DNA of 8,382 nucleotides, from positions 1 to 8,382 of the forward strand of contig JAFYAB010000127.1 in assembly GCA_017540945.1 (NCBI GenBank), written 5' to 3'. The notes under the pieces are model-generated. The model was not told where the DNA came from. It searched no databases and saw nothing but the letters and a program-made list of their open reading frames with translations. A program made the position numbers and the translations under genes. The stretch comes from Oscillospiraceae bacterium. Its GTDB lineage: Bacteria > Bacillota_A > Clostridia > Oscillospirales > Oscillospiraceae. Positions 212 through 6,739 of the stretch are shown here, piece after piece (position 1 is the stretch's first letter; each line of letters starts with the position of its first letter).

Positions 212-285
212 CGTAGGGGCCGATGCCCACATCGGCCCTTTTCCCGGGACGATGCGGAGGGCCGATGTGGGCATCGGCCCCTACG
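212..285. repeat. Intergenic palindromic element 1 (28-base perfect inverted repeat)
   Basis: The arms at 212-239 and 258-285 are perfect reverse complements, separated by 18 bases. Each arm is also a small hairpin by itself, with GGGCCGATG pairing to CATCGGCCC around a CCCA loop. The outer ends read CGTAGGGG on the left and CCCCTACG on the right, the same tips as the two other intergenic elements in this window. It lies between the divergent small cysteine-rich gene and the AlaX gene. There is no T-run beside it, so it is not an ordinary intrinsic terminator. It looks like a non-coding interspersed repeat (REP- or MITE-like); mobility is not shown. Confidence 0.85.
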
Positions 286-1526: not shown

Positions 1527-1792
1527 CGTAGGGGCGGCTCTTATTCATAGAATGAGCCGCCCGGTTTGCGAAGCAGACAATCGCCCGGAGGGCGATCCGG
1601 GTGGGTATGGTAATGGGAAAGACGAACTGACTGATTGTTTGGCGGTTTTTTTCGGGACCGTGCCAGATTTGCCTGCGGCAAATTGTCCGCCGATGGCGGA
1701 CCGGGACGCTCACCCCTTGTGGGTAAGAGCGTCCCCTACGGCAAAACTGAAAGGCTTCTGCCCCGGGCTGGCGGCCAATGGCCGCCCCTACG
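1527..1792. repeat. Intergenic hairpin-array element 2 in the prfA leader
   Basis: This element fills most of the 342-base gap between the AlaX gene and prfA. It opens with CGTAGGGG and a hairpin GGGCGGCTC (1532-1540) / GAGCCGCCC (1554-1562). Next come ATCGCCC/GGGCGAT (1580-1596), ATTTGCC/GGCAAAT (1667-1683), GTCCGCC/GGCGGAC (1685-1701) and GGGACGCTC (1703-1711) / GAGCGTCCC (1727-1735), the last ending in CCCCTACG (1733-1740). A further hairpin GGCGGCCA/TGGCCGCC (1770-1786) ends in another CCTACG tip at 1792. The block 1666-1712 matches element 3 (4013-4059) at 42 of 48 aligned columns. The prfA frame stays open back through part of this DNA, but I take that as chance. Confidence 0.8.
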
Positions 1793-2885: not shown

Positions 2886-3910
2886 CAACGCTGCTGTTAT
2901 CGACAACTGAACAGGACCTCGAAAGAGCCGCCGCCATCATCAAGGCGGGCGGGCTCGTGGGGATCCCCACCGAGACGGTCTACGGTCTGGGCGCCAACGG
3001 GCTGGACCCGGAGGCGGTCAAAAAGATTTTCGAGGCCAAGGGGCGGCCCCAGGACAATCCGCTGATCCTCCACATCCACGACGCGAGCCAGCTCTACGAC
3101 TTCTGTCGGGAGGTCCCCGAGACCGCTCTGCTGCTGGCCGGGACCTTCTGGCCGGGACCCTTGACCATGATCCTGCCCGTGGCGGACTGCGTACCGAAAA
3201 CCACCACCGCCGGTCTGGAAACCGTCGGAGTTCGCTGCCCGGACAACGACGCCACCCGGGAAATCATCCGGCTGGCGGAGGTGCCCATCGCGGCTCCCTC
3301 GGCCAACAGCTCCGGCAAGCCCTCCACCACCACGGCGGCCCATGTCCTCCACGACATGGAGGGCAAGATCGACGCCATCGTGGACGGCGGCCCCTGCCGC
3401 GTGGGCGTGGAATCCACCATCGTGGACCTCAGCGGCCCCGTACCGCGACTGCTGCGGCCCGGCGGCATCGGTCCCGAGCGCCTGGAAAACCTGCTGGGCG
3501 CGCTGGAAATCGACAAGGCCGTCACCGGCGAGATCGACAAGGACGCGATCGTCCGGGCTCCCGGCATGAAATACAAGCACTATGCTCCGGCGGCGGAGGT
3601 ACTGATCGTGGAGGGCTCCGCGGAGGCCGCCGCCCGCTGGGTTCGGGAGCGCTTCGCCCCCGGCGACGCGGTACTCTGCTTCGGCGAGGAGCTGCCCCTC
3701 TACCAGGGCCTGAACCCCACCGCCTACGGTCTGGAGGCGGACCCGGCTACCCTCTCCGCCGGCCTCTTCGCCGCCCTGCGGAAGCTGGACGACGGGACCG
3801 TCAAGCGGATCTTCGCCCGCTGCCCCACCGGCGGCGGCGTCAGCGTCGCCACCCGGAACCGGCTGCAAAAATCCGCCGGCTTCCACACCGTAAATACGGA
3901 GGAACCGTAG
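2882..3910 (+). CDS. ywlC: L-threonylcarbamoyladenylate synthase, Sua5/YwlC type (TsaC2)
   Basis: This 342-residue enzyme makes threonylcarbamoyl-AMP from threonine, bicarbonate and ATP, the first step in t6A37 modification of tRNAs that read ANN codons. The YrdC domain covers about residues 10-200. It shows PTETVYGLGAN (29-39), KGRPQDNPL (53-61), FWPGPLT (89-95), SANSSGKPS (140-148) and GVESTIVD (175-182), all typical of substrate and ATP binding in this family. The PGMKYKHYAP linker (227-236) and the C-terminal Sua5 domain (about 240-335) identify the long Sua5 form rather than short TsaC. The length is close to that of Bacillus YwlC. Its ATG overlaps the prfA stop as ATGA, a classic sign of translational coupling, and this prfA-ywlC neighbourhood is common in Firmicutes. 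The other t6A genes (tsaB, tsaD, tsaE) are not in the window. Confidence 0.96.
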   Translation: MTTLLLSTTEQDLERAAAIIKAGGLVGIPTETVYGLGANGLDPEAVKKIFEAKGRPQDNPLILHIHDASQLYDFCREVPETALLLAGTFWPGPLTMILPVADCVPKTTTAGLETVGVRCPDNDATREIIRLAEVPIAAPSANSSGKPSTTTAAHVLHDMEGKIDAIVDGGPCRVGVESTIVDLSGPVPRLLRPGGIGPERLENLLGALEIDKAVTGEIDKDAIVRAPGMKYKHYAPAAEVLIVEGSAEAAARWVRERFAPGDAVLCFGEELPLYQGLNPTAYGLEADPATLSAGLFAALRKLDDGTVKRIFARCPTGGGVSVATRNRLQKSAGFHTVNTEEP

Positions 3911-3919
3911 GAATCACGC

Positions 3920-4073
3920 CGTAGGGGCGCTCACTGAGCGCCCGCCCATGCGAAGCATGCATCGTTTGCGTCAGCAAACGATGCAACCACCTGCCATATC
4001 GTAACCGCATCGGATTTGCCTGACGGCAAATTGTCCGCATGCGGCGGACCGGGCGCTCAATGAGCGCCCCTAC
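3920..4073. repeat. Intergenic hairpin-array element 3 before coaE
   Basis: The element has terminal inverted repeats of about 25 bases (3920-3944 and 4050-4073, nearly complementary). Each is itself a hairpin of GGGCGCTCA/TGAGCGCCC (3925-3943 and 4051-4069), with GTAGGGG and CCCCTAC tips. Between them lie CATGC/GCATG around GAA (3947-3959), GCATCGTTTGC/GCAAACGATGC (3959-3984), ATTTGCC/GGCAAAT (4014-4031) and GTCCGC/GCGGAC (4033-4049). The block 4013-4059 is the near copy of 1666-1712 in element 2. The right tip ends directly against the AGGAGG ribosome site of coaE (4074-4079). There is no open frame or protein signal inside. Confidence 0.83.
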
Positions 4074-4083
4074 AGGAGGAACC

Positions 4084-4860
4084 ATGTTTGTAATCGGCAT
4101 CACCGGTCCTACGGGGGCCGGAAAGACCACGGCCCTGCGGGTGCTGGAGCGGATGGGCGGGCAGGTCTACGACTGCGACGCAATCTATCATGAGATGCTG
4201 GCCTCCGACGGAGAGCTGCTGGGTCGCATCGAGGCCGCTTTCCCCGGCGCGGTAAAGGACTATACGCTGGACCGCAAGGCCCTGGGCGCTCGCGTGTTTG
4301 CAGACCCCGAGGGCCTGCAGCGGCTCACCGACATCACGCAGCCCCTGGTGGCGAAGCGGGTATTGGAGGAGATTGCAAGATCGGACGCCTCTGCCTGTCA
4401 TTCTGAGCGGAGCGCAGCGGAGTCGAAGAATCCGTATTCCCCATCCTCCGATCCCGCTTGCTCCGCCAATACGCCGCCTCATCCGTCATCCGGCTTCCGT
4501 GAGACGCCGGATGCCACCTACCCCGCAAGGGGAAGGCTTTCCGTCATCGACGCCATCGGGCTCTTCGAGAGCGGGCTGGGAGCGGAGTGCGACCTGACCG
4601 TGGCGGTGGTGGCGGACCCGGAAATCCGGCTCAGGCGCCTCATGGCCCGGGACGGGATCACAGAGGACTACGCCCGCTCCCGGATCGCCGCCCAAAAGCC
4701 CGCGGAGTGGTACGCGAGCCACGCCGACGTTATCCTGGAAAACAACGATACGGCGGACAGCTTTGCGAAAAAATGCGAATCGGTTTTTTCGCAAATGCTC
4801 CGGGCAAAGCCGACCGATCAATCAGGTCAGACAAAAAAGAAAACAAACGGAATAATATAA
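4084..4860 (+). CDS. coaE: Dephospho-CoA kinase with a repeat-derived internal insertion
   Basis: CoaE phosphorylates the 3'-hydroxyl of dephospho-CoA with ATP, the last step of coenzyme A synthesis, in the cytoplasm. The product here is 258 residues; the family is usually about 190-210. The P-loop is GPTGAGKT (8-15), followed by YDCDAIYHEML (29-39, the conserved D-A-D/I region), LTDITQPLV (81-89) and, after the insertion, VIDAIGLFESGL (154-165), RRLMARDGIT and the ENND segment near the C-terminus. The known catalytic framework is therefore present in order. Residues about 105-152 have no counterpart in ordinary CoaE. They are proline-, serine- and charge-rich and come from two repeat modules (4396-4540), placed in the loop between a helix and the strand leading to LFESG. 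The ATG at 4084 has AGGAGG at 4074-4079; a frame extension to 4039 would run into element 3. The gene is followed after 21 bases by the peptidase gene. I think it is functional because the frame stays open through both halves. Confidence 0.93.
   Translation: MFVIGITGPTGAGKTTALRVLERMGGQVYDCDAIYHEMLASDGELLGRIEAAFPGAVKDYTLDRKALGARVFADPEGLQRLTDITQPLVAKRVLEEIARSDASACHSERSAAESKNPYSPSSDPACSANTPPHPSSGFRETPDATYPARGRLSVIDAIGLFESGLGAECDLTVAVVADPEIRLRRLMARDGITEDYARSRIAAQKPAEWYASHADVILENNDTADSFAKKCESVFSQMLRAKPTDQSGQTKKKTNGII
4396..4540. repeat. Two interspersed-repeat modules inserted in frame within coaE
   Basis: Module A (4396-4433) begins TGTCATTCTGAGCGG and ends GTCGAAGAATCC, the form of a widely seen bacterial interspersed repeat (read from the other strand, GGATTCTTCG...CAGAATGACA). 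Module B (about 4477-4540) begins CCTCATCCGTC, has a hairpin CATCCGGC (4487-4494) / GCCGGATG (4506-4513), and ends with CCACCTACCCC-GCAA-GGGGAAGGC, resembling a second repeat I associate with gut Clostridia genomes. About 43 bases of linker lie between them. The whole block is open in the coaE frame and encodes a low-complexity loop with H-S-E-R-S-A-A-E-S-K-N-P near its start. Repeat identity rests on recognition, not on a search. Confidence 0.75.
4762..4795. repeat. 12-base perfect inverted repeat at the 3' end of coaE
   Basis: TTTGCGAAAAAA (4762-4773) pairs perfectly with TTTTTTCGCAAA (4784-4795) around a 10-base loop. The block lies inside the coaE coding sequence, about 65 bases before the stop codon. 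The T-run belongs to the right arm rather than following the stem, so it is not a standard intrinsic terminator. It may simply form an mRNA hairpin. Confidence 0.6.
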
Positions 4861-4881
4861 AACCAAGGAGGCAAACACACA

Positions 4882-6276
4882 ATGAGCGAAAAAACCGATG
4901 AACTGAGAAAGAGCCTGCTGCGCGCGCCGAAGAACGGCTATGACCGCATCAGCCCCGAAGAGCGCGCAGAAATGGAGCGCTACTGCAAGGACTACATGAA
5001 GTTCATGGACGCCGCCAAGACCGAGCGGGAGGCAGTGAGCTACACCGTGGAGAAGGCCGAGGAGGCCGGCTTCGTGGTCCTGGAGCCCGGCATGGAGCTG
5101 AAGCCCGGCATGCGGGTCTACCGCAACAACCGGGGCAAGAGCGCCATCTTTGCCGTCATCGGCAAGGAGCACATCGACAACGGCGCCCAGATCGTGGCGT
5201 CCCACATCGACTCCCCCCGCATGGACATCAAGCCCAATCCCCTCTATGAGGACGCCGGTATGGCCTATCTCAAAACCCACTACTACGGCGGCATCAAGAA
5301 GTACCAGTGGACCACCGTTCCCCTGTCCATCCACGGCGTGGTGGCCAAGAAGGACGGCTCCGTCATTACCATCCGCGTGGGCGACGAGCCCAGCGATCCC
5401 TGCTTCATGGTCACCGACCTGCTGATCCACCTCTCCGCCGATCAGATGAAGAAGACTCTGGCCGAGGGCGTCACCGGCGAAGCCCTGAACATCCTCATCG
5501 GCTCCGAGCCCATCGCCGACGACGAGGGTGCCGACCGGGTGAAGCTGGCGGTTATGAAGCTGCTCAACGAGAAGTACGGCATCATCGAAGAGGACTTCCT
5601 CTCCGCCGAGCTCACCATGGTCCCCGCGGACCCCGCCCGGGAGATCGGCTTTGACCGCTCCCTGATCGCCGCCTACGGCCATGACGACCGAGTCTGCGCC
5701 TGGGCCTCCTTCGAGCCCCTGCTGAACATGGAGATCCCCGAGCATACCGCCGTCTGCGTCCTGGCGGACAAGGAGGAGATCGGCTCCGTGGGCGTCTCCG
5801 GCATGCAGAGCCGCTTCTTCGAGACCTTCATGGCCGACATCTGCGAGTCCCAGCAGGGCCAGCTGCGCCGCTGCCTGGAGCGCTCCTTCTGCCTGAGCTG
5901 CGACGTGTCCAACGCCTTTGATCCCATCTACGCCGAGACCTGCGACAAGCGCAACAACTCCCAGATCAACTACGGCATCGCCCTGTGCAAGTACACCGGC
6001 TCCCGGGGCAAGGGCGGCTGCTCCGACGCCTCCGGCGAGGTCATGGGCCGCATCCGCCGGCTCTTTGACGACAACGGCGTCGTCTGGCAGACCGCTGAGC
6101 TGGGCAAGGTGGACCAGGGCGGCGGCGGCACCGTGGCCGCCTACATGGCCAACCGCAACATCGACACCCTGGACGCCGGCGTGCCCGTGCTGAGCATGCA
6201 CGCGCCCATGGAGATCGTCTCCAAGCTGGACTGCTACATGACCATGAAGGGCATGAAGGCAGTCTACCATGATTAA
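4882..6276 (+). CDS. M18 family metallo-aminopeptidase
   Basis: The 464-residue product is an M18 (aspartyl aminopeptidase/aminopeptidase I) enzyme, a cytoplasmic two-zinc peptidase of the MH clan that removes N-terminal residues, often acidic ones, from peptides. Metal and catalytic residues visible in order are H108 in ASHIDSPRMD (with D110), D268 in YGHDDR, E298-E299 in DKEEIGS, D341 in SCDVSNAFDP and H440 in MHAPMEIVSK. KYTGSRGKGGCSDAS (about residues 371-385) is another conserved region. The length is usual for clostridial members. An AAGGAGG site (4865-4871) lies 10 bases before the ATG. There is no signal peptide. The gene lies 21 bases after coaE and its last 8 bases overlap the next gene. 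Substrate preference cannot be read from the sequence. Confidence 0.93.
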   Translation: MSEKTDELRKSLLRAPKNGYDRISPEERAEMERYCKDYMKFMDAAKTEREAVSYTVEKAEEAGFVVLEPGMELKPGMRVYRNNRGKSAIFAVIGKEHIDNGAQIVASHIDSPRMDIKPNPLYEDAGMAYLKTHYYGGIKKYQWTTVPLSIHGVVAKKDGSVITIRVGDEPSDPCFMVTDLLIHLSADQMKKTLAEGVTGEALNILIGSEPIADDEGADRVKLAVMKLLNEKYGIIEEDFLSAELTMVPADPAREIGFDRSLIAAYGHDDRVCAWASFEPLLNMEIPEHTAVCVLADKEEIGSVGVSGMQSRFFETFMADICESQQGQLRRCLERSFCLSCDVSNAFDPIYAETCDKRNNSQINYGIALCKYTGSRGKGGCSDASGEVMGRIRRLFDDNGVVWQTAELGKVDQGGGGTVAAYMANRNIDTLDAGVPVLSMHAPMEIVSKLDCYMTMKGMKAVYHD

Positions 6277-6739
6277 AACTGCGACCCAGAGGGAGACCGC
6301 CGCGGTCTCCCTCTGGGTCAAGCTGCAAACAGGGCTGCTGGCGGCCATTCTGCTTTTGCTGATCGTGGCGATCCTGCTGCTGGCGGGCTCCGTCAAGCGG
6401 CTCGACCACAGCCTGGAGCTGGTTCAGACCGACCTGGAGGCCCTGCAGATGGACAAGGTCAACGAGGCCGTGGCCGCCCTCACGGAGGCGGCGGACCGAC
6501 TGGCCGCCATCGACGTGGAGGGCCTCAACGAAACCGCCCAATCCCTGAAGGCCGCCGCCGACAGCCTCACCAAGGTGGATGTGGAGACCCTCAACGGGGC
6601 CATCGCCTCCCTGAAGGACGCGGCCAACACCCTGAAGGACCTGGACATCGAGGGCCTCAACGGAGTGATCCAGTCTCTGAGCAAGACTGCCGCCAACCTT
6701 CAGAAGGTCAGCGACGCCATCGGGAGCATTTTCGGGTGA
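6269..6739 (+). CDS. Single-pass membrane protein with four 22-residue helical repeats, unknown function
   Basis: I do not recognise a named family. The 156-residue product has a short N-terminal segment (1-18), one hydrophobic helix (about 22-40, rich in L, I and A), a basic VKR stop, and then a long amphipathic region without proline. Residues 60-147 divide into four repeats of exactly 22 residues, starting at Q60, D82, D104 and D126, with the pattern D-(V/I)-E-x-L-N near the start and S-L-K-x-A-A-x-x-L later in each. The period is two 11-mers, as in hendecad coiled coils. With K18 before and VKR after the membrane helix the topology is unclear; the repeats could face the cytoplasm or the outside. 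It resembles in layout the DUF948-like small membrane coiled-coil proteins, but I would not assign it. The start overlaps the peptidase gene by 8 bases, with AAGG 9 bases upstream. A strong palindrome covers codons 5-17. Confidence 0.82.
   Translation: MIKTATQRETAAVSLWVKLQTGLLAAILLLLIVAILLLAGSVKRLDHSLELVQTDLEALQMDKVNEAVAALTEAADRLAAIDVEGLNETAQSLKAAADSLTKVDVETLNGAIASLKDAANTLKDLDIEGLNGVIQSLSKTAANLQKVSDAIGSIFG
6283..6319. repeat. 37-base near-perfect palindrome at the peptidase / membrane-protein junction
   Basis: GACCCAGAGGGAGACCGC (6283-6300) is the exact reverse complement of 6302-6319, with a single C at the centre (6301). It lies 6 bases after the peptidase stop codon and 14 bases after the start codon of the membrane-protein gene, so it encodes TQRETAAVSLWV there. 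Both strands encode the same peptide in the matching register. No T-run follows, so a rho-independent terminator is unlikely; an mRNA hairpin that lowers translation or shields the upstream message from 3' decay is possible. Confidence 0.9.

Follow-up and report, generated by a model that had tools for sequence, protein, structure and literature searches.

The window, i.e., the whole stretch of 8,382 nucleotides that was analysed (Oscillospiraceae bacterium, contig JAFYAB010000127.1), carries coaE together with genes for an AlaX-like editing protein, PrfA, TsaC/Sua5 and an M18 aminopeptidase, and ends in the start of an incomplete gene, which we take to be aldehyde-dehydrogenase-like. Positions 6269-6739 encode a small protein without a Pfam match; it has a hydrophobic stretch, and its tail is repetitive and coiled-coil-like. 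The features of interest, with the evidence for each in brackets, are as follows.

213..238, plus strand: GTAG-tagged REP-like hairpin between genes (hairpin detector)
259..284, minus strand: GTAG-tagged REP-like hairpin, inverted partner of 213..238 (hairpin detector)
1770..1791, minus strand: intergenic GTAG-REP belonging to family C, which in some relatives is found within coaE (pattern, detector)
3921..3943, plus strand: GTAG-tagged REP-like hairpin between tsaC/sua5 and coaE (hairpin detector)
4051..4073, minus strand: GTAG-tagged REP-like hairpin immediately upstream of coaE, inverted to 3921..3943 (hairpin detector)
4084..4860, plus strand: coaE, dephospho-CoA kinase, 258 amino acids with a 48-residue insert (Pfam, open reading frame, AlphaFold2, PDB fold matches)
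4396..4433, plus strand: module A, 38-bp dispersed repeat, read as CHSERSAAESKNP (pattern matches in relatives)
4434..4476, plus strand: spacer of 43 bp, no recognised repeat (no module match by eye, no fold)
4477..4540, plus strand: module B, 64 bp, two hairpins, read as PHPSSGFRETPDATYPARGRL (pattern matches, fold)

The frame 4084-4860 is open throughout and encodes 258 amino acids that match the Pfam family CoaE (PF01121) at 1.8e-32, with 112.9 bits against a cut-off of 27. The Pfam and NCBIfam matches fall in two stretches with the insert (residues 105-152, positions 4396-4539) between them. The first 30 PDB fold matches include 29 structures named CoaE or CoA synthase, the remaining one, 1uf9, being named only TT1252. 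By domain and fold the protein is a member of the CoaE family, for which catalysis can be predicted. The solved CoaE structures lack the insert: the best match, 1uf9, steps from residue 107 to 115 where the query goes from 103 to 159. Likewise, the segment from helix to strand has 74 residues in the window CoaE vs 25-29 in all 25 of the more distant CoaEs listed (P0096, P0098-P0121). The preliminary description of this DNA, an intact CoaE interrupted without a stop by two repeat-like modules, is borne out, and these more distant relatives are devoid of residues 105-152, as it had asked. We reject a chance open frame, because all 20 loops that were read in relatives are open and Pfam matches flank the insert on both sides. 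Three findings would have refuted that description, namely a loop shared with distant orthologues, single-copy modules or a second intact coaE, and as far as the available genomes allow none of them holds. The second coaE was sought in the genomes of 20 relatives: the PF01121 search gave one coaE in each of them, the match in 12 consisting of two halves of one gene.

In the AlphaFold2 model (57 aligned sequences) the CoaE core has a pLDDT above 90 and the insert about 50-60; the C-terminal tail of the protein is of low pLDDT as well. The insert lies between the helix 75-105 and the strand 152-156, and no stretch of it reaches four residues of helix or three of strand. It is modelled as a disordered loop between the helix and the IDAIGLFES strand, in agreement with the placement before the strand leading to LFESG that had been proposed beforehand. 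Given the usual topology of P-loop kinases, the insert would point away from the active site.

Modules A and B are dispersed repeats and not chance sequences. A strict pattern for A, searched in 20 relatives' genomes (G021-G027 being outside this search), matched in 14 of them, e.g., 156 times in G002, 60 in G009 and 47 in G007, with no match in the other 6 and none in the reversed control. The pattern for B matched in 13 of 27 relatives' genomes (15 copies in G001, 14 in G007, 11 in G008 and 10 in G013, among others), with none in the remaining 14 or in the reversed control. All copy numbers given here for A, B and C are counts in relatives' genomes. They uphold the earlier view that the modules are interspersed repeats, and the exact 38-base A of the window is found also elsewhere in G007 and G001. 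A is rarer inside genes: in 379 kb of G007, called genes take up 81% of the sequence and hold 16 of 54 copies, the called genes including frames without domain support (L117:4860-7748, L123:3925-6333, L119 and L142). Module B folds as two hairpins (z −3.05), and module A shows no strong palindrome (z 0.37). Neither carries a GTAG tag, and the GTAG-hairpin detector was blank over 4396-4540; we therefore reject their membership of the GTAG-REPs. Neither of the two could be linked to a mover.

A third family, module C, is a GTAG-REP. GTAG-REPs carry the tag 0-2 nt 5' of a stem of 7-20 bp with a loop of 2-5 nt (PMC6006769). In module C the GTAG precedes a hairpin of 8 bp in the stem and 3 nt in the loop (fold z −2.76); the module is dispersed in high copy number and flanks a RAYT gene. 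Its pattern, with at most one mismatch, occurs in 15 of 27 genomes (119 copies in G005, 72 in G001 and 60 in G006, for instance; control 0). The short C pattern used in the G007 survey also yields chance matches, in an epimerase (L116) and a DUF6937 protein (L136), with no module in the translations. Between the genes of the window itself there are five GTAG-tagged hairpins, against a mean of 0.02 and a maximum of 1 in 50 Markov-1 controls.

As in REPIN/RAYT systems, family C repeats here flank a RAYT with the HUH motif; modules A and B differ from such systems in having neither GTAG nor a mover that could be found. A RAYT-like transposase (MPNHVHLLL) has C repeats on both flanks at L222 of G007, and a RAYT frame of G001 (HVH, YIEYNP) is entered directly by tandem family-C-like units. 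The class 2 signature Y---NP, as described in PMC6006769, is present in the G001 frame, the corresponding motif of G007 being Y---NA. PF01797, a family that covers RAYT and IS200 transposases together, is above the cut-off in 14 of 27 genomes. It has no match in the decorated genomes G002, G004, G009, G010, G011 and G015, and no C repeat lies near the PF01797 genes of L223 (G006) and L224 (G008). At L150:12457-14469 (G001, minus strand) the RAYT frame is fused in frame, via ten tandem VGAVIGRP units, to a protein that we presume from reading it to be sugar-kinase-like.

The best 95 protein matches to the window CoaE form one side of a core tree of weak support, with stars on 18 of its 114 inner branches, and the named records among these relatives are gut and rumen Oscillospiraceae or Clostridia. 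In this clade the loop after the helix ranges from 8 to 165 residues, and its modules, single or stacked, come in seven kinds, recognised by reading of the CoaE loops.

Module A: CHSERS..EES
Module B: SSV..PGG
Module C: GGRPMAAPT
Module D: low complexity, PSPVACCLLPVAS
Module E: TGRQIAGAT
Module F: HPSTGLEAGPP
Module G: GSDARIAPVIAAGND

At least one module is present in the loop of 83 of the 95 clade CoaEs, a descriptive figure, as the regular expressions were written post hoc after inspection of the loops and miss module-like text in at least P0027 and P0053. The genome-wide counts cover A, B and C only; in 379 kb of G007, the expressions matched E 7 times, G 6 times and B/F 16 times, and D had no match there. 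Within the genus, 21 of 23 genomes have a CoaE match (G023 and G026 have none) and 20 have a readable loop (that of G022 is unreadable), 13 being decorated and 7 not, as judged by eye. There are no stop codons across the 27 coaE matches in 21 genomes, nor in the 20 loops read. Decorated genomes are richer in B and C copies (one-sided Mann-Whitney p 0.0009, a test that ignores kinship and counts the copies within coaE), and G010, with three A-like copies in its loop, is decorated yet has no B or C match.

The loop seems to move as a cassette between strains and species, as two kinds of comparison suggest. In the first, nearly the same enzyme carries a different loop. The window CoaE and P0004 are identical over the first 89 residues, then have loops of 20% identity (the helix end included), and then differ at 4 of 106 positions; P0005/P0006 and P0026/P0057 behave in the same way. 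Ten pairs have a core identity of at least 97%, and in four of these the loops are less than 50% identical; since the protein records are representatives of 90%-identity clusters, such pairs are over-represented and indicate existence, not a rate. In the second kind, different enzymes share a loop. Silent divergence between G007 (L007) and G011 (L011) is 0.51 in the core and 0.07 in the B-C-A-E array, 76 codons long with the spacers included (Fisher p 1e-9, from rounded counts); the high identity sets in where B begins and reaches into the IDAIGLFESGLG codons. Silent divergence is lower in the loop for 5 of the 7 pairs tested, the other four of these five being G005/G006 (0.35 core vs 0.10 loop), G004/G008 (0.51 vs 0.18), G001/G014 (0.53 vs 0.27) and G002/G004 (0.53 vs 0.31). 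It is no lower for window/G001 (0.47 core, 0.46 loop) and window/G014 (0.59, 0.63), pairs in which the loops are mostly unrelated. Homologous recombination between conserved flanks would explain both patterns, and we infer it to be their cause.

CoaE is not alone in carrying such modules. In G007, G008, G009 and G001, in-frame modules occur in proteins with Pfam matches: PolA, TsaD, a P-type ATPase, an Orn/Lys/Arg decarboxylase, HutD, ScpB (at the C-terminus), CitG, HydF, an ABC transporter ATPase domain, an HI0933-like flavoprotein, a DUF2344 protein, a PLP decarboxylase C-terminal domain, AroE-AroK and an RNA methyltransferase, the last presumably RsmE from our reading. The stretches of G007, G008 and G009 were picked around A copies, and that of G014 and two of G001 for convenience, so that the sample is not random. 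Orthologues without the insert were compared for CoaE and AroE, and these two are repeat-decorated in frame: in each, the insert is a dispersed repeat that orthologues do not have, its presence in the protein product being predicted from the sequence. The AroE comparison covered the 13 readable loci out of 20. G007 has four tandem A copies (L121:6980-8392, CHSERSEESV), and a single copy occupies this site in G008 and in G009; the other 10 loci have no A there, with other module-like text in G001, G002 and G006. The AroE repeat is a case of copy-number variation within an enzyme. In the P-type ATPase of G007 (L140:4951-7929), a stretch of ~200 residues with A and two B/F modules lies between the catalytic parts.

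The examined set comprised 131 copies of A; outside it are the 156 copies of G002 and several that lie on further contigs of G008 and G009. Twenty copies lie in frames with coding signal on both flanks, and 19 of them, in 16 of 17 genes, are read in the register HSER..EES or its reverse partner DSSTPLRSAQND (p 2.6e-8). Two orthologue pairs share a site (AroE and the PLP decarboxylase, each in G007 and G009); with such pairs counted once, the figure becomes 14 of 15 (p 2.8e-7). A strict cut on codon score had left only 6 genic copies, with the register in 6/6, and the flank rule was then loosened post hoc with the same register result. The exception is the frame L139:2517-3491, probably a spurious one, for which Pfam gives no match; two frames that were counted, L139:10691-13507 and L202, are likewise without a Pfam match. 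Since one register is used even though three other frames are open in 116-130 of the 131 copies, translation together with selection on the peptide would be the simplest reading of this hydrophilic bias.

Taken as a whole, we consider repeat insertion, in-frame survival and exchange of the loop by recombination to be probably the right explanation; the two pairs in which silent divergence is no lower in the loop, and the decorated genomes with no PF01797 match, weigh somewhat against it. Short non-autonomous repeats of several families would spread through the genomes, family C being most likely mobilised by RAYT. Most insertions into genes would presumably be lost, and those surviving would be the ones that are in frame, stop-free, in tolerant loops and in the hydrophilic register. 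One such tolerant place, filled repeatedly, would be the loop of CoaE ahead of the IDAIGLFES strand. Once filled, it would change largely by homologous recombination, the conserved coding flanks permitting whole arrays to pass from one strain or species to another; the repeats that an array contains would allow in-frame deletion of pieces. The insert would be translated as a disordered loop, probably a near-neutral one.

In a different history, a full array (B-C-A-D/E) would have been inserted once, long ago, and only in-frame deletions would have come after. The order B-C-A-D/E is indeed frequent and the frame of A and C is largely constant, both by eye, and the difference between P0082 and P0091 resembles a deletion between two C copies. 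Nevertheless, B comes after A in the window and is read there partly in another frame than in most B-carrying relatives (by eye), and other events are required for G, for F and for the several A copies in the G010 loop. Moreover, each of the modules A-D needs at least 19-20 state changes, a count made with post-hoc expressions and on a tree of weak support. Because of the order and frame of B and the separate events that several families need, we disfavour this history and regard it as unlikely.

It might also be supposed that the loop serves CoaE as an adaptive and diversifying segment, e.g., for regulation of activity or binding of a partner, built from repeats and kept for its function. The recurrent filling, the near-identical array in two species and the hydrophilic register would fit this. 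So would the comparison of P0001 with P0003, in which 2 of 49 insert residues are changed vs 7/103 and 21/86 in the core. Plain neutrality does not predict such a low change, and recent exchange would predict it. On the other hand, relatives with short loops sit inside the clade (G003, G012; P0049, P0056, P0058, P0066), the same place is filled by unrelated peptides, and the same repeats appear in unrelated enzymes. We think that this reading is quite improbable, and the word 'domesticated' in the preliminary description was too strong, the functional role of the insert being only putative.

Nearly all named genomes are labelled as MAGs, metagenome contigs are among the data as well, and the loops consist of repeats, where assemblies misjoin; loop and core could in principle come from different organisms as the result of misjoins between strains. 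Such a swap requires two joins, both within coaE. The frames are open in 20/20 loops. The window's loop is found again in the separate clusters P0002 and P0003, and the near-identical array recurs with its spacers in G007 and G011. Alternative loops also lie on long contigs, namely 6 contigs of up to 68 kb for P0006 and one of 46 kb for G014 (the P0005 loop). An assembly artefact is, in our opinion, very unlikely. That the insert is missing from the protein through ribosome bypass or removal from the mRNA, for which the coding-strand hairpins of B would be a hint, is hardly credible in view of the frame kept in 20/20 loops, the register bias in 16/17 genes and an Rfam scan of 3880-4900 that gave no family at gathering score.

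Going further than insertion, in-frame survival and exchange, the CoaE loop might be a hypervariable cassette, in which peptide alleles of repeat origin pass between species more quickly than the enzyme evolves, with selection keeping them in one register, selfish DNA being the source of a shuffled and possibly functional segment; we offer this tentatively, as a possibility with the odds against it. The apparent scale already exceeds that of the preliminary description, with several repeat families in one loop, an apparent loop exchange and further decorated enzymes.

Besides the REPIN/RAYT systems, two known systems come close. In Rickettsia, RPEs are elements of 105-146 bp found in frame in conserved protein genes, and an RPE-bearing guanylate kinase (Gmk) is reported to be translated and active with a changed substrate affinity (PMC2229807, reviewing Ogata 2000 and Abergel 2006). 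The likeness lies in dispersed repeats in frame in conserved genes, a nucleotide kinase included. The modules of the window, with 38 and 64 bp, are set apart by length from the RPEs of that source; besides, Rickettsia is intracellular, whereas several unrelated and shorter modules are stacked here, in Oscillospiraceae and with apparent exchange of the loop. The parts consulted of Di Nocera et al. 2013 (PMC3733652) describe intragenic GTAG/CGTC REPs as giving 'REP-decorated' proteins in several species, with RAYT association, in-frame copies in open reading frames, clusters coding for 43-82 amino acids, and, in recB, an approximate site at which two Xanthomonas carry REPs that differ from each other. 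The GTAG tag with a short hairpin, the RAYT association and the in-frame copies are common to both. Stacking with modules like A and B and cassette exchange were not met in those parts, and the main text of PMC3733652 has no word beginning with Clostridi-. No such report for Clostridia or coaE was found among the top-ranked papers of a literature search whose coverage left out most subscription journals. The stacked unrelated modules in one loop, the apparent loop exchange, the register test and the Oscillospiraceae host appear, on this search, to be new.

With these observations the conversion of repeats into protein, known from Rickettsia and from REP-rich genomes in other phyla, takes in uncultured gut Bacillota as well. 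They also provide a natural series of one enzyme with many unrelated inserts at one site, in which some sequences differ almost only in the loop, and thus it becomes directly testable whether inserts of this sort are useful or neutral, an old question. They are a warning as well, as hypervariable repeat loops may be taken for annotation or assembly errors.

The other end of coaE is variable too. In the window a stop and a gap part CoaE from the M18 aminopeptidase. In 6 of 10 genomes viewed, CoaE reads by eye without a stop into the downstream M18 sequence: L164 (G007), L156 (G003), L161 (G027), L162 (G025), L168 (G024) and L171 (G016). Pfam finds both domains in one 746-aa frame of G007. The CoaE frame of P0024 is extended by a GNAT acetyltransferase, with similar-looking tails in G005 (L158) and G006 (L157), and that of G015 (L155) by an apparent Nudix domain, these by eye. 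By the same kind of reading, C-terminal fusions of coaE with various downstream sequences appear to recur.
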